A DNA stretch of 36,245 nucleotides, taken from an uncultured Eubacteriales bacterium. GTDB lineage: Bacteria; Bacillota; Clostridia; Peptostreptococcales; Anaerovoracaceae. Position numbers and translations under genes: made by a program. The stretch covers positions 1 to 36,245 of the forward strand of contig ONRQ01000015.1 of assembly GCA_900320285.1 (NCBI GenBank), written 5' to 3'. This document shows positions 3,463 to 34,921 of the stretch, piece after piece. A model generated the notes under the pieces. It saw nothing but the letters and a program-made list of their open reading frames with translations. It was not told the origin of the DNA and ran no database searches. The first letter of the stretch is position 1. Each line of letters begins with the position of its first letter.

Positions 3463-4638
3463 CTACTTCAGGCCGGAGGCCATCATGTAGATGTTGAAGA
3501 TATCTTCAGTATCGAGGACTTTGAAGTTTCCGATCTTGCGTGCGTTCTGGAATGTTACTCCAAGTGCTGCCGTGCGGCATGCCGCTTCGTCGAAGTTGAG
3601 TCCGAGGCCCTTGATGTCTGTCGGCATGTCGATCGAGCGGAAGAACGCCTCGAATTTTTCAATAGTCTTGATTGGATCGCTTTCACCAAATACGCCTTCG
3701 CCGAGCTTTACAAATCTGGACGGATCTACTTCCAGCACATACCTTGCCCAGGATCCCCAGATAGCCGCGAGGCCTGCGCCATGCGCTACATCGTATTCTG
3801 CAGAGAGCTCATGCTCTATCTGGTGACATGCCCAGTCACCCTTGTTGGAGTTGCCGGCTGCCATGAGTCCGTTATGCGAGAGCGAGCCGCACCACATGAG
3901 GTTGGCTCTTGCGTCGTAGTCTTCCGGATTTTCGAGCGCTGCCGGAGCCCACTTCATAACTTCCTTAAGGAGTGTGAACGAGAGCTGGTCTGTGAAGTCG
4001 AGCGCATATCCCTGGTGGAAATATCTCTCGAGGGTGTGCATCATGATGTCGGTAGCGCCGCATGCTGTCTGGTATTTTGATACAGTTGCGGTCAGCATAG
4101 GGTCGAGCATAGCAAACTTCACTCTTCCGAAGTCTGTGTTGACGCCCCTCTTGTAGGTAGTCTCGGTCTCGTCGTTAGTGATAACGGACGAGTCACTCAT
4201 CTCGGAACCGGTCGCCGAAAGTGTCAGTACGCATCCAACCGGAGCAGTGCCCTCGACTTTGCGCTTGCCGCAGTAGAAGTCCCAGACATCTCCGCCACCG
4301 TAAACACCGTAGCCGATAGCCTTGGCACTGTCGAGAACGGAACCGCCGCCGACAGCCAGAATGAAGTCGCAGCCTTCGTCCTCGTAAAGCTTTATGCCTT
4401 CGCGTACCAGCGAGACTCTCGGATTTGGAACAACACCGCCGAGTTCAACATACTCGATACCTGCGTCTTTGAGTTTTTCCTCAATATCGTCCAGCAGGCC
4501 TGTTCTTCTGACCGAGCCGCTTCCGAAATGCACGAGCACCTTTACAGCACCGTACTCCTTCAGAACCTCGCCGACCTGATCCTCGGCGCCTATGCCAAAA
4601 TACACATGAGTCGGTGTAAAGTATTCCATTATAGCCAT
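3463..4638 (-). CDS. Iron-containing alcohol dehydrogenase (butanol dehydrogenase type)
   Basis: 391 residues, the full length of group III Fe-ADHs. The nucleotide-binding motif A-V-G-G-G-S-V-L-D-S-A-K is at about residues 95-106. Metal ligands fit D197, H201, H272 and H286, with the same 14-residue spacing between the last two as in YqhD. The family reduces aldehydes (butyraldehyde, acetaldehyde and others) with NAD(P)H in fermentation; the exact substrate cannot be read. An AGGAG site precedes ATG 4638. The gene stands alone between the alpha-glucosidase gene and a small membrane protein gene. Confidence 0.93.
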   Translation of the reverse strand: MAIMEYFTPTHVYFGIGAEDQVGEVLKEYGAVKVLVHFGSGSVRRTGLLDDIEEKLKDAGIEYVELGGVVPNPRVSLVREGIKLYEDEGCDFILAVGGGSVLDSAKAIGYGVYGGGDVWDFYCGKRKVEGTAPVGCVLTLSATGSEMSDSSVITNDETETTYKRGVNTDFGRVKFAMLDPMLTATVSKYQTACGATDIMMHTLERYFHQGYALDFTDQLSFTLLKEVMKWAPAALENPEDYDARANLMWCGSLSHNGLMAAGNSNKGDWACHQIEHELSAEYDVAHGAGLAAIWGSWARYVLEVDPSRFVKLGEGVFGESDPIKTIEKFEAFFRSIDMPTDIKGLGLNFDEAACRTAALGVTFQNARKIGNFKVLDTEDIFNIYMMASGLK

Positions 4639-4747
4639 TGTCTTTCTCCTTTTCTGTAATAGTCCAAGACTTTTACCGTTGTTGCTTTTGCGGCGCTGCG
4701 TACACAGATGTCACCCTTTGGATTCTGGTGCAGTGCCCTGTCGTTTT

Positions 4748-6499
4748 TTATATTCTGTTCTCTTCAAACAGTATAGCCTCGTAAGGCTTCATGTGCATTA
4801 TCTCTTCGACCTCTGCGTCCGTGCGGTCGCGGTTGGTCATGCGGATCGTCAGCTCATCAAGCTCGAAGTCGCCCGGCATTATGAAGTCGGCGCGCACGCC
4901 GGAGAAGTTGCCGACGATCAGGAAGCGCTTGTCCCCATAGCATCTGCTGTATGAGATCACCTGTCTGTCATCAGGATAATACTCGATAGTGCTGCCGTAA
5001 AGGATCGTTTTCTCCGACTTCCTGAATGCGAGCAGCTTCTGGTAGAAGCGGTAGATCGACTTGCCCGGATCGAAGGCCGGGTCTGACGGATCTGTCACAG
5101 TGGTGCTGCTTTTAGCCAGATCTGCCTCAACATTTATTTCCTTGTATTCAGGATTAACGCACTGCCACGGCTTGGCTCCTGCGTTGAATCCCGCGTTGTA
5201 CGACGAATCCCACTGCATCGGGGTTCTGGCGTTGTCTCTGGCGGCGCCCCTCATCATCCTGAACGCAACACGCTCCGGAATATGCAGGTCCTCAGCCATC
5301 TCGAAAATGAAATGCGTCACCGGATCCTTCATCTCTTTGAGGCTTCTGAACTTCGTATTGGTCATGCCGATCTCTTCGCCCTGATAGATGAACGGCGTGC
5401 CCCAGCCGAGGAATGTGATCATCGCCAGGAATGTGGCTGCCTCATATCTATATCTCTTTGTGTTGATGCCGAACCTGCTGACGCTTCTGGCCTGATCGTG
5501 GTTCTCCAGTACGAGCGTATTCCACCCGCTCCCGTGATACTTGATCTGAGGAGCCAGCAGTCCGCGCTTGAACTGCCTGAGGTTGAATGGCTTCGGTATC
5601 ATCTTGAGGCCGAACGCATTATCCGAGGTCAGGTGCTCAAAGTCGAAGATGGTGTCGAGCTCGCCGTTTTCTTCATTTATATATCTGTCCGCGTGCTCTT
5701 CGTCAGGTATGTAGGATTCGCCGACGGTGTATGTGTCGTAAAGCGAGAGCGCCTTGTCGTTCAGCTCCTTCAGGAACTCATGCATGCGCGGCCCGTCGAC
5801 ATAATACGGTACGCCTTTCTGGAATCGGATCGGATTCTTGTCGTCCTTGAACGGATAAACCTTCGAGATCATATTGAACACATCGAATCTGAATCCGTCG
5901 ACGCCCTTTTCGAGCCAGAACTTCAAGACACTTATCATCTCTTCCCTGACCTTAGGATTCTCCCAATTGAGGTCAGGCTGCTCCGGCGCAAAGAGGTGCA
6001 GGTAGTATTCGTTGGTACCCAATATCCTCTCCCATGCCGGACCGGTGAACGAAGACGTCCAGTTGGTCGGCGGGATCAGCTCGCCATCCTTATCTTTTCT
6101 GCCCTCTCTGATGATGTAGTAATCGCGGTATGGCGAATTCTTGTCGGCCAGCGCGGCCTTGAACCACGCGTGCTCATTGCTCGTATGATTGAACACGGCA
6201 TCCATTATCACCCTGAGGCCGCGCTTATGGCATTCAGCCACGAGCCTGTCGAAGTCCTCCATTGTGCCGAACGCAGGATGGATCTTCTTATAGTCTGCTA
6301 TGTCGTAGCCGTAGTCCCTCCACGGCGAATCGTAGAGCGGCGAGAACCAGATGGCAGTCGCGCCAAGATCCTTGATGTAGTCAAGCTTCGAGATGATGCC
6401 GGGAATGTCGCCAATACCGTCATTATTCGAATCCATATAGCTGAGCGGATAAATCTGATAGACCACCGCTTCCTTGTACCAGTTAGTTTTTACAGCCAT
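4748..6499 (-). CDS. GH13 alpha-glucosidase (oligo-1,6-glucosidase type)
   Basis: 583 residues, a complete GH13 enzyme: N-terminal (beta/alpha)8 barrel with a calcium-site-like D-S-N-N-D-G-I-G-D loop (residues 23-31), the D-A-V-F-N-H motif near 100, nucleophile D206 in G-F-R-F-D, acid/base E261 in V-G-E-S, and transition-state D335 in E-N-H-D; a small beta domain closes the C terminus. It belongs to the cluster with oligo-1,6-glucosidase, trehalose-6-phosphate hydrolase and sucrose isomerase; no signal peptide, so it acts inside the cell on imported oligosaccharides. No transporter or regulator lies nearby. The Shine-Dalgarno is weak (AAGAGAC). Confidence 0.92.
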   Translation of the reverse strand: MAVKTNWYKEAVVYQIYPLSYMDSNNDGIGDIPGIISKLDYIKDLGATAIWFSPLYDSPWRDYGYDIADYKKIHPAFGTMEDFDRLVAECHKRGLRVIMDAVFNHTSNEHAWFKAALADKNSPYRDYYIIREGRKDKDGELIPPTNWTSSFTGPAWERILGTNEYYLHLFAPEQPDLNWENPKVREEMISVLKFWLEKGVDGFRFDVFNMISKVYPFKDDKNPIRFQKGVPYYVDGPRMHEFLKELNDKALSLYDTYTVGESYIPDEEHADRYINEENGELDTIFDFEHLTSDNAFGLKMIPKPFNLRQFKRGLLAPQIKYHGSGWNTLVLENHDQARSVSRFGINTKRYRYEAATFLAMITFLGWGTPFIYQGEEIGMTNTKFRSLKEMKDPVTHFIFEMAEDLHIPERVAFRMMRGAARDNARTPMQWDSSYNAGFNAGAKPWQCVNPEYKEINVEADLAKSSTTVTDPSDPAFDPGKSIYRFYQKLLAFRKSEKTILYGSTIEYYPDDRQVISYSRCYGDKRFLIVGNFSGVRADFIMPGDFELDELTIRMTNRDRTDAEVEEIMHMKPYEAILFEENRI

Positions 6500-10516: not shown

Positions 10517-10681
10517 TACGGCTTGTATTGTTTTTGTACATAATACGCACCCTTTTTTTCTCGTGTTTATCACATGAGTAATGTACTATCTTGGTATATA
10601 AGCAACCTGCCTCAGGCGCGCCGCTACAGAGATGTATTTTTGGCATCAGGCCTGCGCCATTACACAAGAAAGGGGAAGACT

Positions 10682-13246
10682 ATGAGTTCGTTAAAACTTA
10701 CGGATACGCTGTGGTGGAACGGCGCGCTCGATCCGGATACCCATATCTCGGACGTAATCGTGCAGATGGAATTCGGCACCACATACAACTCATACACTCT
10801 TAAGGGCAGCGAAAAGACGGCTCTTATAGAGACATCAAAGTACAAATTCTGGGAGGCCTTCAAGGGCGAGCTCGATGATGCGGTAGACATCACCAAGGTC
10901 GACTACATCATCATGGATCACACCGAGCCTGATCACTCGGGAACGCTCGAGAAGCTGCTGGCAATCAACCCGAAGATCACGGTAGTCTGCACAGGCACTG
11001 CGGCAAGCTTCCTGAAGGAGATCATGAACACCGACTTCCGTGTCATGACTGTCAAGGAGGGCGACACCCTCTCGCTCGGCGACAAGACGTTGCATTTCAT
11101 GCCTGTGCCTAACCTGCACTGGCCTGACACCATGTTCACTTATTGCGAAGAGGACAAGACCCTCTATACATGCGACGTGTTCGGCGCTCACTACTGCCCG
11201 CCGTCGGGTGATGTAAGGCGCAGCAGGCTGACCGGTCAGGACGAAGCCAACTACAAACGCACGATGCAGGATTACTTCAACATCATCATCGGACCTTACA
11301 AGAATCCGTTCATGAACATGGCCCTTGAGAGGATCAAGGATCTCGACATTCAGATGATATGCCCAGGCCACGGCCCTGTGCTTGACGCCGGCATCGACTG
11401 GGTAATGGAGAAATATCACGAATGGTGTGCGAGACCTGAGAAGAAAGACACCAGGCTGGTGGTCATTCCTTACGTAAGCGCTTACGGATACACCGGGCTC
11501 CTCGCTGACAAGATCGAGGAAGGTCTGAAGGCAAGCGGACCTATCGAGGTCCATAAGTACGACATGGTATTCGAGGAGGACGTTGCGGGAGTCATCGCTG
11601 ACCTCAACGCGGCTGACGGCATACTCTTCGGAACACCGACTATCGTTGCGGATGCGCTGAAGCCTATCTGGGATCTCACAACGAGCATCTTTCCTCCTCT
11701 CATGAAGGGCAAGCTCGCGAGCGCGTTCGGCTGCTACGGCTGGAGCGGTGAAGGTGTACCTAACATAATCGAGAGACTTAAGCAACTCAAGATGAAGGTG
11801 CTCGACGGCTACCGCATCAGGTTCAAGCCGAGCGAGACAGAACAGCTCGACGCATTCGACTTCGGATACAACTTCGGCTGCGTGCTGCAGAACAAGGAAG
11901 TAAAGAAGTCTGACACTCCTGCCGGAGCAAAGAAGATGGTCAAGTGCGTGGTCTGCGGGGCCGAGTTTGAGGAAGGCACAGACACATGCCCGGTCTGCGG
12001 AGTCGGCAGCGACAAATTTGTTCCGGTCGAATCCAAGGCGACAAGTTTCAAAAAGGATACCGATGAGAAGTTCGTCATTCTGGGAGGAGGTCCGGCAGCA
12101 AAGAGCGCGGCTGAGGCAATCAGAGACCGCAACAGCAAAGCAGTCATTACAATCGTTACTCAGGAGTCCGACCTGCCTTACAACAGACCGATGCTCACTA
12201 AGGCTCTTCTTTCGGATTTCTCGGGCAACCAGGCTGCGATTGAAGGACCTGAGTGGTACGAAGAGCGGAACATCTACTTCATGGCAGACACCACAGTCAC
12301 TAAAATCAATACCGCAGCAAAGAGTGTTGATCTCATACTCCCTGACGGCAGCAATGGAGCGCTCATTTACGACAAGCTGATCTACACTCTCGGCGCTTTC
12401 TGCTTCGTGCCTCCTATCAAGGGAGCCGACCTCGCTCACGTGGCAAGTGTCAGAAACATTGCGGATACAGTCCGTATCAAGAAAGTGCTTGAGGAGCGCG
12501 ATGCCAAAGAAGTCGTCTGCATAGGCGGAGGCGTAATGGGACTCGAAGGCGCATGGGAGCTGAAGCTCGGCGGATATGATGTGACCGTACTCGAGACCGC
12601 ACCTGGTCTGCTTCCTCGCCAGCTCGATGATCCGGCATCGGCCATGGTCGAAAGCATCTGCAACGCAGCAGGTGTGAAGATCGTTACCGGAGCTAAGATC
12701 GTAGAGATCACAGAGGACGCAGTAGTGCTCGATGACGGCACCACCTTCCCTGCCCAGCTCGTGATCATGTCGACAGGTATGAGGCCTTACACAAAGGTCG
12801 CCGAGGACAGCGGCATTGAAGTCGATAAATGGGTCAAGGCTAACGACCGCATGGAAACGAATGTGAAAGATGTCTACGCTGCAGGCGACTGCTGCGTGAT
12901 CAACGGACAGCCACAGGCATTCTGGGCTCAGGCTATCGAGACAGGCCGCATCGCGGGAGCCAATGCTGCAGGCGAGGCGCTTGAGTACAAGGCTCTCGGA
13001 AGTGCGCTGGTCATCAACGCGATGAATACGAGCATATTCGCTCTTGGTACAAACGGCAAGGATCCTGACAAGACATTCCGTACAGTTGAGTTCAGAGACG
13101 ACCAGAGAGGCAACTATGAGAAGTACTACTTCCACAACAACCGCCTCGAGGGAGTCATCCTGGTCGGAGACACAGACCGCATGATAGAGCTCAGCGAGAA
13201 AGTCGACAAGCACGCAACATACAAGGAAATGTTCGGCCGCAAATAG
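10682..13246 (+). CDS. Multidomain flavodiiron NADH:O2 oxidoreductase (FDP-rubredoxin-NROR fusion)
   Basis: 854 residues from ATG 10682, which has AAAGGGGAAG just upstream; a frame extension to 10574 is not homologous. Domain 1 (1-250): metallo-beta-lactamase diiron core with all ligands, H80-x-E82-x-D84-H85, H146, D165 and H230. Domain 2 (about 258-405): FMN-binding flavodoxin. Domain 3: short-spaced rubredoxin, C422/C425 and C436/C439, only ten residues between pairs. Domain 4 (463-854): FAD/NAD(P)-dependent rubredoxin oxidoreductase with G-G-G-P-A-A near 468 and V-Y-A-A-G-D-C near the end. Known class F enzymes (for example Clostridioides difficile FdpF) reduce O2 to water with NADH without partner proteins. 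This is oxygen defence for an anaerobe. Monocistronic, with a terminator downstream. Confidence 0.95.
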   Translation: MSSLKLTDTLWWNGALDPDTHISDVIVQMEFGTTYNSYTLKGSEKTALIETSKYKFWEAFKGELDDAVDITKVDYIIMDHTEPDHSGTLEKLLAINPKITVVCTGTAASFLKEIMNTDFRVMTVKEGDTLSLGDKTLHFMPVPNLHWPDTMFTYCEEDKTLYTCDVFGAHYCPPSGDVRRSRLTGQDEANYKRTMQDYFNIIIGPYKNPFMNMALERIKDLDIQMICPGHGPVLDAGIDWVMEKYHEWCARPEKKDTRLVVIPYVSAYGYTGLLADKIEEGLKASGPIEVHKYDMVFEEDVAGVIADLNAADGILFGTPTIVADALKPIWDLTTSIFPPLMKGKLASAFGCYGWSGEGVPNIIERLKQLKMKVLDGYRIRFKPSETEQLDAFDFGYNFGCVLQNKEVKKSDTPAGAKKMVKCVVCGAEFEEGTDTCPVCGVGSDKFVPVESKATSFKKDTDEKFVILGGGPAAKSAAEAIRDRNSKAVITIVTQESDLPYNRPMLTKALLSDFSGNQAAIEGPEWYEERNIYFMADTTVTKINTAAKSVDLILPDGSNGALIYDKLIYTLGAFCFVPPIKGADLAHVASVRNIADTVRIKKVLEERDAKEVVCIGGGVMGLEGAWELKLGGYDVTVLETAPGLLPRQLDDPASAMVESICNAAGVKIVTGAKIVEITEDAVVLDDGTTFPAQLVIMSTGMRPYTKVAEDSGIEVDKWVKANDRMETNVKDVYAAGDCCVINGQPQAFWAQAIETGRIAGANAAGEALEYKALGSALVINAMNTSIFALGTNGKDPDKTFRTVEFRDDQRGNYEKYYFHNNRLEGVILVGDTDRMIELSEKVDKHATYKEMFGRK

Positions 13247-13257
13247 GCGAAACAAAA

Positions 13258-31074: not shown

Positions 31075-31500
31075 CTAGTACAGCTTAGCCCCTGCAGGGA
31101 TCCTGTCGTCTACGAGCAGGAGGTTGAGCATTTCCTCACCGTCGTACTCGTTGACCGCGCTGATCAGCATTCCGTTTGAGTACTCTCCCATCATCTTTCT
31201 CGGCGGAAGGTTCACGATCGCTATCGCTGTCTTTCCAACGAGTTCGGAAGGATCGTAGTACTTCTTGATTCCGCTGAGGATGACTCTGTCCTCGCCGGAT
31301 CCGTCGTTCAGAACGAACTTCAGCAGCTTGTCTGACTTCTTCACTTCCTCGCAGGATTTGATCTTGACTGCGCGGAAGTCGCTCTTGCTGAATGTCTCGA
31401 AGTCCACTGCCTCTTCGAAAAGCGGCTCTACCTTTACCTTGCTGAAATCGATCTCTACTCTTTCCTTCTTAGCGCCTGCGCCCTTGCCTTCCGGCTTCAT
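31075..31500 (-). CDS. Stand-alone MetRS C-terminal tRNA-binding domain
   Basis: 141 residues. Residues 1-30 are a lysine/glutamate-rich linker like the one before the C-terminal domain of bacterial methionyl-tRNA synthetases, then an OB-fold EMAPII/CsaA-type tRNA-binding domain (about 33-141) with V-I-L-S-G-I-K-K-Y-Y, I-V-N-L-P-P-R-K-M-M-G and S-N-G-M-L-I-S-A. In many Clostridia this sequence is the last part of MetRS; here it is a separate short gene. An in-frame TAA lies six codons before the ATG, and there is no SD. It may be a real split-off beta subunit or a broken fragment. Confidence 0.75.
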   Translation of the reverse strand: MKPEGKGAGAKKERVEIDFSKVKVEPLFEEAVDFETFSKSDFRAVKIKSCEEVKKSDKLLKFVLNDGSGEDRVILSGIKKYYDPSELVGKTAIAIVNLPPRKMMGEYSNGMLISAVNEYDGEEMLNLLLVDDRIPAGAKLY

Positions 31501-31678
31501 TGTCGGGAGTGGATTTTAAAGCCTCATACGGCAAATCGATTTGAAAATCGACCATTTCCACCACCATGCCTTGACTGGCCCAGACCATTTTTAGCTTTCA
31601 AAAATTCCTTCGATATGCATCTCCGGACAGGTTTGGGGTAAGCCAGGGGTAAAATGGGGTATCCCTCCCATCTATCGC
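31501..31678. other. Spacer between tRNA-binding gene and EcsC fusion gene
   Basis: No gene seen. TCGATTT-GA-AAATCGA (31537-31552) is a perfect inverted repeat. One frame stays open across the junction from 31600 but has no homology I recognise. Confidence 0.4.
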
Positions 31679-32836
31679 CTACTCTTCCTCAACAACCTCT
31701 GTTGCTGAATTGATCCTGACACTTTCAATGCCATTTAGGCAGCTCTTCTTAGCTTTATAACTCTCACTTGTAGCTATGACCTGTCCATTCTTAGCCTTAA
31801 GTCTGAAGCGATGTTCTCCTGCTTTGTCCATGTACATTTCAAACTTAGGATTCTTGCATTTTTCAGCATCTTCCTTCGTCTGATCTTCAAGTGCAGCAAT
31901 TGGTGCATTCGTCATGACACTCTTTATACCATTCATGCATGCTGCTTTTGACTTGTATACCTCGGAAGTTGCTATAACCTCACCGTTTATAGCTTTGAGA
32001 TCAAACTTTAATCCAGTGTTTGTCTTCCTTATTATATACTTCCCTAGTCTTTCCAACTCGTCCGTTTCAGCAGTCTCTTCAATAAGAGATGTTTCAGCTG
32101 CAGCATCAGCAATCATCTCTGGTACTTCTTCAGCAACTGCGTCTGCTTCAATGATATCAGGTATTACATCATCTATGTCTTCGAGTTCTTCCCCAACGGC
32201 AAAATTACCTTTAATAAACATATTATAAGCTCTGTTCGCAATTGCTTTCGTTTCAGCGAAATCCATTCCTCCGTTGATAGCCGCACCCACGCCCGGAATC
32301 ATCTTTCCAAGGTTAATAAGACCTTTCTCACCAAACTTGGTAATAAATCTGAAACCTAACCGCTGATTGATTTTTGTAAGAACTTTACCTGGAATCTTCT
32401 CAATAGCAACTTTGGCCATCTTATTACCAAATTGTACAGCAAATTTCTTAGTTAACTGGTTAACCGAAACACCTGCCATACACGCATAAATAAAGGTCCT
32501 TACCTGATCACTTTTCAGATCATAGCCACCCATATGTGCAGCACATGCTACCATTCTCATTTGCACATATAGCACACTACTGAGGTTTGCCGGGATAGCA
32601 ACCGGCAATGTAATCAATCCTCCAAAGCCAGTGATAAACCCCGATGTAGTGCATTTAGCTACCTGGTGATTAAGCATAGACTTGGCAGCTTTATTGATAT
32701 CCTTATGTTTAGTAAGGTAATCATCAGCCATATCCTCAACAGAAGAATTGACTTTAGGTATTCCATCACAGGCTTTAATATATATTTCATCAAGGATCTT
32801 CAATATATTATCTTCATTTATTATTGCTTTAGCCAT
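31679..32836 (-). CDS. EcsC-family protein fused to two DUF1508 (YegP) domains
   Basis: 385 residues. Residues about 1-215: EcsC-like domain (F-I-T-G-F-G-G-L-I-T-L-P-V-A-I-P-A-N near 68-85, hydrophobic A-C-M-A-G-V-S-V near 113-120, G-K-M-I-P-G-V-G-A-A-I-N-G). Residues about 216-262: acidic linker with many A, E, D. Residues 264-312 and 331-380: tandem DUF1508 domains (each with K-A-x-N-G-E/Q-V-I-A-T-S-E, then N-G-I-x-S-V). AGGAGAAG upstream. EcsC-type proteins are of unsettled role; DUF1508 occurs as a small tandem-repeat protein in many bacteria. I know of no demonstrated function for this fusion. A remnant of the same tail lies at 30905-30990. Confidence 0.85.
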   Translation of the reverse strand: MAKAIINEDNILKILDEIYIKACDGIPKVNSSVEDMADDYLTKHKDINKAAKSMLNHQVAKCTTSGFITGFGGLITLPVAIPANLSSVLYVQMRMVACAAHMGGYDLKSDQVRTFIYACMAGVSVNQLTKKFAVQFGNKMAKVAIEKIPGKVLTKINQRLGFRFITKFGEKGLINLGKMIPGVGAAINGGMDFAETKAIANRAYNMFIKGNFAVGEELEDIDDVIPDIIEADAVAEEVPEMIADAAAETSLIEETAETDELERLGKYIIRKTNTGLKFDLKAINGEVIATSEVYKSKAACMNGIKSVMTNAPIAALEDQTKEDAEKCKNPKFEMYMDKAGEHRFRLKAKNGQVIATSESYKAKKSCLNGIESVRINSATEVVEEE

Positions 32837-33090
32837 TGAACTTCTCCTGTCACATCATTTCTGCTTTATAGTTAGTTGATTGTCGGATAAAAAACGCTGC
32901 TAAAAATTTTTTCCTGCTTAAGTAATACCAGTACTCTAGTTCATACGCTCCCACAAAAAATCTCTACATTTTTATAATACTACAAAATGAACTCTTATGC
33001 CGTCCTAATTAATGGACTGCGGCCGCTAATCTTGGTTTTTCAACCGTTTTTCAACGATTTTATAAGCTCACTATTGTGCTGGCGGTGTTA
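32837..33090. other. AT-rich leader of the EcsC fusion gene with direct repeats
   Basis: No gene seen. Bases 33035-33044 and 33046-33055 are two copies of GTTTTTCAAC spaced by 11 nt, close to the 3' end of the tRNA-like gene. Such short direct repeats near an integrase are often arm-type binding sites. The region also has AAAAATTTTTT (32901-32912 area) and weak -10-like boxes for the EcsC gene. Confidence 0.45.
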
Positions 33091-33168
33091 TGGTGCTCCC
33101 GACCGGATTCGAACCGGCACTTGAAGGATTTGAAATCCATTTCCTCTGCCTCATTGGGATACAGGAGC
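33091..33168 (-). tRNA. tRNA-like gene, anticodon UCA, CCA encoded
   Basis: 78 nt including an encoded CCA (33093-33091). Acceptor GCTCCTG/CGGGAGC (one T-G pair), T8 and A9 present, D loop with GG, D stem of three good pairs plus a C-A at 13-22, anticodon arm GGA-TTTCAAA-TCC with one T-T mismatch at 28-42, U33 and anticodon UCA, five-base variable loop, T arm GCCGG-TTCGAAT-CCGGT, discriminator A. UCA reads the UGA codon. The short variable arm and 7-bp acceptor are unlike selC. The mismatches and G21 suggest a degenerate or suppressor-type tRNA rather than a standard one. It sits between the EcsC gene and the integrase. Confidence 0.7.
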
Positions 33169-33197
33169 AAATAATGATTAAATGTGCCCATGACAAA

Positions 33198-33221
33198 AGG
33201 AGGACCTTTATCGATCCTCCT
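33198..33221 (-). terminator. Terminator after the integrase gene
   Basis: AGGAGGA (33198-33204) pairs with TCCTCCT (33215-33221) around a 10-base loop; on the minus strand TTT follows. It separates the integrase from the tRNA-like gene. Confidence 0.6.
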
Positions 33222-33256
33222 CATGTCTAAGCTAAAAGAAGTACATAAGCCAACTA

Positions 33257-34489
33257 TCAACTGATCTTCTTTTCTTCAAGATATCTCGACAGATCTCCCA
33301 TTGCTGTCTGCTCGAGTTCCTTGGTTATGTCTACGTATATATTCATTGTGGTACTTATATCCGTATGTCCCAGGACTCCCTGGATCACTTTGATGTTCAT
33401 GCCGGACTCACACATGCGAGTTGTGAAGGTATGCCTGAATGTGTGGCAGCTGAACCTCGGCAGTAGCAGCGGCATATCATCGCCTTCATGGTTATCCCAT
33501 ATTTCATCATTACAGTCACGCATGATCCTCCAGCATGCCTTATTCAGAACTCCGAGATTGAGAACTTCTCCAAAGCGATTGCAGAATATGAAATCCTGAT
33601 ATCCGTCAACAACAGTTGTGCAGTACAATCCCTTCTCATCCTGCTCTTTCTTAATCTGCAGGAAAGCATTCCTCACCGAGTCCAGCATTGGTACTTTTCT
33701 CCGGCTGCTCTGTGTCTTAGGTGTATTGATGGCATATCTCTGTTTGTGATCCTTGTTATAGAAGACAAGCGTATGGTTCACGTCAATTACACCATTCTCG
33801 AAGTCGACATCCTCCCAGCGAAGCCCTGTGAGTTCACCTACTCTCAGTCCGGTCCCAAGGAATATCTCGATAATCGGCTTCCAGTGCCTGTACTCTTCGC
33901 TTTTATCAAGGTATGACAGGAGCAGTTTCTGCTGATCCACAGTGAGAGCGATCCTTTTCTCACTATCATACTGGTGTGAGGCTTTGAGCTCCTTCAGCGC
34001 ACCTGTCGCCGGATTTGTCCTTATATAGTTGTCATCGACTGCAAGCTGCAGCACCTGATGAAGGATCGTATGCATCGACTCTGCAGTTGCGAGTTTCAGA
34101 CCACCTCCGTCGACCATTCTGTTATAGAACTGTCTCACGTCTGACTTCTTGAGTTTACAGATCTTGCACTTGCCAATCTCAGGGGATATGAACTGAGTAT
34201 ACATATACTTATAGTTCTGGAAGGTGTTATCTTTGACACCCTTCTTCGTCCTGCACCAGACTCCGTATACATCATCGAGAGTGACGGTATCTGCATTGAA
34301 TCTGATTCCGTCTATACGGTCCATAGTAATCTGATCTTCCAGTTTTCTCAGAGCTTCAAGCGAAGAAGAATAAACAGATTTCCTCTTTCCTCCATTCTTC
34401 TGATACCTGAATTCATAAGTACCATCCTCGCGCTGGCGTTCTCCTCTTCTGAGGAGCCGGCCCTTACTGTCTTTTCTTTTGCCTGCCAT
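33257..34489 (-). CDS. Tyrosine-type site-specific integrase
   Basis: 410 residues, full length. Residues 1-50 form an arm-site DNA-binding domain like that of Tn916 integrases (R-G-E-R-Q-R-E-D-G-T-Y-E-F-R-Y); residues about 72-170 are the core-binding SAM-like domain; the catalytic domain follows with R216 in L-R-V-G-E-L, K258 (candidate), H349 and R352 in H-T-F-R-H, H375 in L-G-H and nucleophile Y385. Catalyses integration and excision at an att site. AGGAGGAGG precedes the ATG, 18 nt after xis. With xis and the accessory genes it forms the recombination module of an integrative element whose far end lies outside the window. Confidence 0.95.
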   Translation of the reverse strand: MAGKRKDSKGRLLRRGERQREDGTYEFRYQKNGGKRKSVYSSSLEALRKLEDQITMDRIDGIRFNADTVTLDDVYGVWCRTKKGVKDNTFQNYKYMYTQFISPEIGKCKICKLKKSDVRQFYNRMVDGGGLKLATAESMHTILHQVLQLAVDDNYIRTNPATGALKELKASHQYDSEKRIALTVDQQKLLLSYLDKSEEYRHWKPIIEIFLGTGLRVGELTGLRWEDVDFENGVIDVNHTLVFYNKDHKQRYAINTPKTQSSRRKVPMLDSVRNAFLQIKKEQDEKGLYCTTVVDGYQDFIFCNRFGEVLNLGVLNKACWRIMRDCNDEIWDNHEGDDMPLLLPRFSCHTFRHTFTTRMCESGMNIKVIQGVLGHTDISTTMNIYVDITKELEQTAMGDLSRYLEEKKIS

Positions 34490-34507: not shown

Positions 34508-34921
34508 TTAAACCGAGAACTGCGAATCAAGGAATTCCGCGAAGCGTTCTCTCTTGATAAGTCTTCTTGTGCCATTCCAGATAACGAACTCGCAGTCCTC
34601 GTCGGATGTAAGTGCTCTGATCTTCGGTGTTCCCATGGAGAAATACTTTGCAGCTTCATCAATAGTAAGAAGCTGTTTTTCCCAAATTGGAATATCCTTA
34701 CCGTCGACATAGTATTTGATAGATGGTCCTGTCTCCGTCTCCGCAGCAGCTTTTGTCTTAGCTTTCGTTTCATTCTTCTCTTCATTTTCCACGAACTTCT
34801 CACCAAGTCTGGTGATCAGATCGTTATACTGCCTGTCGCTGAGGAGGCCCTCCTCCTTAATGCTTGATAGGCATGCTATCTGCATGCTCTGTATGAAAGT
34901 TTTCTCAAAATTATTATTCAT
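34508..34921 (-). CDS. Excisionase-like protein
   Basis: 137 residues. N-terminal 45 residues form a SHOCT-like helical segment, then a charged linker K-T-K-A-K-T-K-A-A-A, and from about residue 80 a Tn916 Xis-type MerR-like domain (I-W-E-K-Q-L-L-T-I-D-E-A-A-K-Y-F-S-M-G, then R-R-L-I-K-R-E-R-F-A-E-F-L). It should bend DNA and steer the integrase toward excision. AGGAG lies upstream. Gene order xis-int, both leftward, matches Tn916-like modules, although the N-terminal extension is unusual. Confidence 0.88.
   Translation of the reverse strand: MNNNFEKTFIQSMQIACLSSIKEEGLLSDRQYNDLITRLGEKFVENEEKNETKAKTKAAAETETGPSIKYYVDGKDIPIWEKQLLTIDEAAKYFSMGTPKIRALTSDEDCEFVIWNGTRRLIKRERFAEFLDSQFSV

Follow-up and report, generated by a model that had tools for sequence, protein, structure and literature searches.

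A leucine-type tRNA gene with anticodon UCA at the integrase end of a lysS-integrated element and its possible role as a joint for cargo exchange

The window analyzed here, a stretch of 36,245 nucleotides that makes up the whole of contig C30 of a draft genome (2.02 Mb, 88 contigs, 78.6% complete; G000), carries a tRNA gene with the anticodon UCA next to an integrase gene, which raises the question of whether this gene serves the decoding of UGA, the integration of the neighboring element or some other function. The gene (33091..33168, minus strand) is the single tRNA that ARAGORN detected in the whole window (anticodon tca), and it matched the Rfam tRNA family (RF00005) with 50.8 bits (E 3.3e-8) as compared to a gathering score of 29. 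These results and a count of helix pairs, namely acceptor 7/7 (one G-U), D 3/4, anticodon 4/5 and T 5/5 (one G-U), agree with the full cloverleaf, encoded CCA and UCA anticodon described in an earlier note on this DNA as well as with its remark that the D and anticodon stems are weak. The gene is 78 nt long, its anticodon loop reads TTTCAAA and its variable region consists of 5 nt. Since the minimum-energy structure of the sequence folded alone was not a cloverleaf and its stability was unremarkable (z -0.92), its assignment as a tRNA is based on the family match. We conclude that it is a real gene, and an unusual one. The direct repeats noticed earlier near its 3' end were also found: two tandem 11-nt units (33035..33056), GTTTTTCAACC at 33035-33045 and GTTTTTCAACG at 33046-33056, are identical at 10/11 positions and lie 34 nt from the tRNA 3' end. 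They contain the motif TTGAAAAACGGT (minus strand), for which 197 kb of scanned sequence held three exact matches, all at these flanks, i.e., in the window repeat and in two flanks of lysS right junctions (see below). When up to two mismatches were allowed, no enrichment of the motif was seen (12 matches vs. 14 in one shuffle). The repeat may represent an arm site of the integrase, a proposal based on a motif that was picked after the flanks had been seen.

ARAGORN labeled the gene tRNA-SeC, a label that appears to rest on the anticodon. Selenocysteine tRNAs possess a long variable arm, a length of about 90 nt or more and an extended acceptor/T axis. By contrast, the window tRNA has a 7-bp acceptor stem, a 5-bp T stem and the short variable region mentioned above, as had been objected earlier against selC. 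The resemblance to selC that had been seen in the anticodon arm holds for the anticodon loop only, and the same genome has a separate tRNA-Sec gene on contig C65 (68.7 bits, cut-off 47). The window tRNA was therefore rejected as selC or as selC-like on the grounds of its size and of the genome's own tRNA-Sec. With tRNA-Sec and the selC-like tRNA-Cys, as described in the available excerpt of PMC7609411, it has the UCA anticodon in common, but it differs in its length, its 7+5 bp, its variable region and A73.

The window tRNA belongs to a family of leucine tRNAs with short variable arm that is found in tRNA arrays and viral contigs. BLASTN with the tRNA as query (E ≤ 0.001) matched 19 of 148 relatives, 17 of them from the same genus, and 28 of the 31 matches listed were full length. 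For 27 of the full-length matches, ARAGORN assigned UCA to five (window included), GUA to two, GCA to one and leucine anticodons to 19, and all but one of the latter (18/19) sit in loci with at least six tRNA genes. Viral contigs gave eight matches to the family pattern, each a tRNA-Leu, and none to the UCA pattern. Dense arrays with short-armed tRNA-Leu, up to 21 tRNA genes in 3 kb, were seen in loci L017-L040. Phage records yielded 29 matches, and among the matches listed (best 20 of 29) those covering most of the query were all less than 80% identical and mostly annotated as tRNA-Leu; plasmid records yielded one weak 31-nt match. Searched by exact pattern, the UCA form occurs in 5 of 349 genomes of the bacterial family, all within the 47 (draft) genomes of the genus. 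In a genome collection the UCA pattern was found in five contigs, assigned to Clostridiales, Lachnospiraceae or Mogibacterium MAGs, of which one is from sheep jejunum; four of the five carry RUG names and presumably stem from the rumen. One of these five, RUG14002, is additional to the copies in the genus genomes.

Leucine character is displayed by the nucleotides outside the anticodon. Position by position, 27 sequences were compared (six with UCA, three with GUA or GCA, 13 leucine-anticodon tRNAs of the genus and five viral ones; other matches were left out), and A73, A14, A15, U48, G18, G19, A20a and C2-G71 were present in 27/27, window included; positions 14, 15, 18, 19 and 20a were preset by the search pattern in the five viral sequences and RUG14002, while the other 21 rows came from BLAST. 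According to the excerpt of PMC9976931 available to us, A73, A15-U48, G18 G19 and A20a count for leucine identity in Escherichia coli, whereas the anticodon and the long arm do not. The bacterial tRNA-Leu identity nucleotides taken from that excerpt (A73, A14, A15-U48, G18 G19 and A20a) are all found in the window tRNA, but its variable region of 5 nt is not the long arm of bacterial tRNA-Leu. Long arms are present in both tRNA-Leu genes seen in the host, which measure 85 and 87 nt. In sequence body, identity nucleotides and size the window tRNA corresponds to the short-armed tRNA-Leu of viral contigs and arrays, from which genes of the window type differ by the anticodon UCA and by their occurrence as single genes at element junctions.

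The genes 5' of the tRNA, on the same minus strand, are an intact Tn916-type tyrosine integrase of 410 aa (33257..34489; PF00589, PF02920 and PF14659), the neighbor that the earlier note had recognized, and a Tn916-Xis-like excisionase of 137 aa (34508..34921; PF09035). The integrase stop TGA directly abuts a TAG. A search of 119 relatives with the integrase matched five at E ≤ 1e-100, own genome included. In four of them (G000, G003, G014 and G042), with integrases 69-100% identical, a tRNA of the family follows 75-88 bp past the integrase stop, and all four copies have kept the full cloverleaf. The neighborhood of integrase and tRNA is thus a recurrent one. Among 25 loci of distant viral integrases, none of the 13 scanned for tRNAs had one. 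Between integrase and tRNA, 18-64 nt upstream of the latter, the window contains a GC-rich, terminator-like hairpin (33186..33232, minus strand; fold z -5.1), which was not flagged by a consensus terminator scan of 32800-33400 that returned no site. A scan of the same region for sigma-70-like promoters returned no site either (shuffles averaged 1.6). Hairpins were also found upstream of the tRNA in the three relatives in which the integrase precedes it (z -2.8, -2.4 and -3.0), and the corresponding values upstream of the UCA tRNAs in L043, L046 and L044 were -2.2, -0.4 and -0.0.

The element to which this integrase belongs is attached in lysS. Past the tRNA 3' end follow an EcsC/DUF1508 cargo gene recognized by Pfam (31679..32836, minus strand) and an ORF (31075..31500, minus strand) that represents a displaced lysS 3' end, i.e., the C-terminal tRNA-binding domain of LysRS. 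This ORF was matched in 38 of the 47 genus genomes, mostly inside open frames of about 600-720 codons, and Pfam identified the intact lysS of G000 as LysRS; assignment of the ORF to a MetRS domain was rejected on the basis of the lysS comparison and Pfam. The core ACAATGAAGCCGGAAGG (with variants) is common to the aligned lysS genes and remnants, and in the window homology starts with it at 31487..31503 (minus strand), the right junction of the island. Parts of an EcsC/DUF1508-like gene adjoin lysS remnants in L100, L102 and L103 as well. At the other end, lysS is followed by HTH, ParA and ParB genes in all four integrase genomes, with ParA 90-92% identical to the G000 copy; in the lysS regions of G024, G030 and G044, which are without the integrase, neither ParA nor ParB was found, and an HTH fragment in G024 was the single match. 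From the integrase end, the island extends to a lysS remnant in G000, G014 and G042; the G003 contig stops 168 bp past the tRNA. Because ParA/ParB follow lysS and a lysS remnant lies at the integrase end, the integrase is assigned to the lysS-integrated element and the tRNA to its interior, where it has the integrase on one side and the right junction on the other. In G000 the restored lysS and the displaced 3' end with the core lie on different contigs, C32 and C30, respectively, the link between which is inferred, not assembled; lysS and integrase are on separate contigs in G003, G014 and G042, too. Element genes identified are Int, Xis, ParA, ParB, HTH and M78. In L100, L101 and L102 (G024, G030 and G044) a displaced lysS 3' end was found some 5-13 kb from lysS, with transporter- or metabolism-like genes (by eye) in between and no integrase noticed among the listed ORFs; lysS may serve generally as a landing site within the genus.

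Comparison of the flanks of the tRNA copies revealed that DNA has been exchanged at the tRNA. At the four integrase loci the 3' flanks showed identities of 0.49-0.55 over 200 bp (168 bp with G003), i.e., chance level as compared to shuffles (mean 0.50, maximum 0.55), while the 5' flanks of the same loci were alike (0.60-0.88). Moreover, one 3' flank, here called flank A, lies behind both the GCA copy that is linked to the integrase in G042 (L048) and the UCA tRNA of G044 (L043), which is without this integrase: the first 100 bp are identical at 98/100 positions, whereas the 5' flanks are at chance (0.50). The shared sequence begins at TCCGGTCAGGAGCACCA inside the tRNA, in the T arm near the T loop. 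The junction has thus been swapped at the tRNA with a breakpoint near the T loop. A similar but weak case is flank B, a stretch near TTGAAAGTCCCTAAAAGGGAC found behind both the UCA tRNA of G042 and the G014 copy that is linked to the integrase (200-bp identity 0.57). The UCA tRNA of G014, G016 and RUG14002 has an A49 x C65 mismatch, which is expected if the 3' part of the tRNA came from a G49-C65 partner, and the mismatch suggests, from sequence comparison, the T arm as exchange point in this group; the G014 pair does not display a reciprocal exchange, since both G014 copies have C65. In G042, two contigs that overlap by 136 bp, although not a closed assembly, give the order int - tRNA(GCA) - sigma/anti-sigma unit - tRNA(UCA) - HTH gene - lysS remnant, in which the unit between the two tRNA copies is about 2.4 kb long and contains sigma factor and (by eye) anti-sigma genes. 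The UCA tRNA also occurs away from lysS: in G044, beside an operon that by eye resembles one for sulfite reductase, and in the G014 group, whose 200-bp 5' flanks are 85% alike to those of G044. In the G014 group an integrase fragment lies 5' of the UCA tRNA, too. A remnant resembling a tRNA 3' end, GGTTCAACCGGGCGCACCA (by eye), was noticed upstream of the UCA tRNA, on the other strand, in L043 (about 5467) and L046 (about 12983) and is possibly the mark of another integrase.

We propose, at a probability of roughly 0.55, that the tRNA is a recombination joint between the integrase end of the lysS element and exchangeable cargo, operating via recombination in the T arm. Following this, the tRNA, a mobile leucine-type gene with short variable arm and anticodon UCA, would mark the boundary between the conserved xis-integrase end and the exchangeable cargo of the element: cargo modules bearing a tRNA copy would become linked to the integrase end through recombination within the tRNA, with the T arm as the most likely place, and each exchange would leave a complete tRNA at the joint. 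The exchange would be catalyzed by a tyrosine recombinase, this integrase or another, rather than by ordinary homologous recombination, and the window copy would be kept for its role as a joint and take little or no part in translation. As the attachment site of the element is lysS, there is no demonstrated reason why the integrase should act on the tRNA, and with 12 Phage_integrase matches in the genome another enzyme could catalyze the exchange. Homologous recombination between the 78-bp copies could give the same junctions. Several further observations count against the joint: the fifth integrase (G020, 51% identical) has no tRNA behind it, the identity of flank A over 200 bp is only 0.71 owing to extra sequence after flank A in G044, neither an excised circle nor an empty/occupied pair within one species was seen, and all leucine identity nucleotides and CCA are kept in the copies, more than a bare crossover core needs. 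Just four integrase-tRNA loci underlie the proposal.

Part of the earlier suggestion of an attachment-site tRNA is retained in this joint, in that DNA is exchanged at tRNAs of the family. Its canonical form, in which the integrase would restore a host tRNA at one end and leave a 3' fragment at the other, is highly improbable. A breakpoint in the T arm is among the crossover positions given for tRNA-targeting islands in the excerpted text of PMC4383910, but here the integrase lies 5' of a complete tRNA, the element ends at lysS, and no tRNA was found in the left-end loci L099 and L108. Islands integrated in tRNA genes have an intact tRNA at one end and a 3' (rarely 5') fragment at the opposite end; in the genome, searched as a whole at 78.6% completeness, the only matches to the tRNA 3' half apart from the gene itself were 17 and 14 nt long, of which one falls inside an ORF and the other at what looks like the start of a gene, and they do not represent tRNA pieces. 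The copy of the 3' half at the far element end for which the earlier note had proposed to look was thus not encountered. Somewhat unlikely, yet deserving more weight, is the explanation that the gene is an inert passenger, a relic of a phage or array tRNA-Leu carried along by chance, with junctions arising by ordinary homologous recombination. Members of the family with leucine anticodons, present in viral contigs as well as in arrays of tRNA genes within the genus, would provide the source, and the anticodon arms of the integrase-linked copies stray from the tRNA norm; however, the tRNA stands directly behind the integrase in 4/5 integrase loci and its cloverleaf is complete in all four copies. 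The related idea of a degenerate copy applies to the integrase-linked copies of three relatives, which are without U33 and UCA (loops CAGTATA or CAGCATA), but not to the window copy with its intact loop. Since those three loops are without U33, decoding is probably not under selection there.

Decoding is the essence of a further alternative, namely that the window gene would act as a functional opal suppressor: once transcribed, and with leucine attached to it, the tRNA would decode UGA, which would impair termination to some extent but profit the element or co-resident phages. The gene appears competent for this: UCA stands in a 7-nt loop with U33, the loop is identical across all six UCA copies compared (three distinct sequences), the acceptor and T stems are intact, and the leucine identity nucleotides and C2-G71 are all there. 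Nevertheless, such a function seems unlikely. The UCA copies form just 3-4/5 pairs in the anticodon stem, as compared to 5/5 in 11 of the 13 leucine-anticodon relatives of the genus and in three of the five viral ones; the hairpin precedes the gene in a region without a sigma-70-like site; three of the four integrase-linked copies lack UCA and U33; and UGA is an ordinary stop here, since among the ORFs with a length of 200 aa or above (window plus 12 loci, of which some overlap) it terminates 28 of 103. For the earlier idea that the tRNA lets element genes pass UGA codons, no dependent gene turned up in those parts of the element covered by the analysis. In the window, all TAA/TAG-bounded frames of at least 150 codons were scanned for TGA codons, and by inspection no long coding frame continues past an internal TGA. 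The clearest recurring in-frame UGA link in the element loci connects an HTH ORF with an M78-peptidase ORF: the junction reads AAGGAG-TGA-TAT-CWR-ATG (GAGGAG in G000), with UGA and two codons separating the ORFs in one frame, and recurs in all four close copies (G000, G003, G024 and G042; loci L047:5961-7247, L048, L145 and L146); it is absent from a fifth copy, which is 37% identical. The ribosome-binding-site-like stretch and the start codon at the junction explain this link, which counts against a suppressor, and G024 has the link yet was unmatched by the tRNA and integrase searches. Readthrough at this UGA is possible. Elsewhere, a 307-aa ORF in G003 (L142, minus strand, about 4480-6120) is followed in frame by a 239-aa open frame after UGA; among other UGA extensions of at least 25 aa, one (44 aa, L099) weakly matches L140 (E 0.002) and two run antisense to main genes. 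A combination of joint and decoding, i.e., a mobile leucine-inserting opal suppressor in the form of a class-I-shaped tRNA-Leu(UCA) derived from phage or array tRNA-Leu, which would serve as cassette joint and, behind a promoter, as UGA reader, is more doubtful still, and a leucine-type opal tRNA as second role is a bold but unproven thought. An arrangement like that of the window did not emerge from the open-access literature on opal suppressors on mobile elements, on UGA, leucine and phage or on UCA anticodons, judged by title and start of the abstract.

With regard to known systems, the genomic islands in tRNA genes of the Islander set, as far as the excerpt of PMC4383910 describes them, likewise have a tyrosine integrase beside a tRNA, an exchange point in the T arm and tandem islands. 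The present element differs from them in that complete copies of the tRNA lie both beside the integrase and between modules, in that a 3' fragment was not found, and in that it ends at lysS. According to the same excerpt, Islander discards matches inside full-length tRNAs, so layouts like that of this element would be filtered out; the locus would offer a concrete case of a non-host tRNA as cargo-exchange junction inside an integrative element that a fragment-based island finder passes over. Tycheposons, by the partial description in PMC10872708, have a similar layout of border tRNA, tyrosine recombinase and variable cargo; here the integrase is of Tn916 type with Xis, attachment is in lysS and the tRNA does not belong to the housekeeping genes of the host. 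Tn916-type integrative elements have the same Int and Xis families at one end; the insertion in lysS with restoration of its 3' end and the tRNA between Int and right junction set the present element apart. Judging from its nucleotides, the tRNA is moreover a natural candidate for a leucine-charged reader of UGA. As a minor observation, long ORFs of 890 and 806 aa, one on each strand, overlap almost completely at window positions 10574-13255, and the ORF on the minus strand has no Pfam match.
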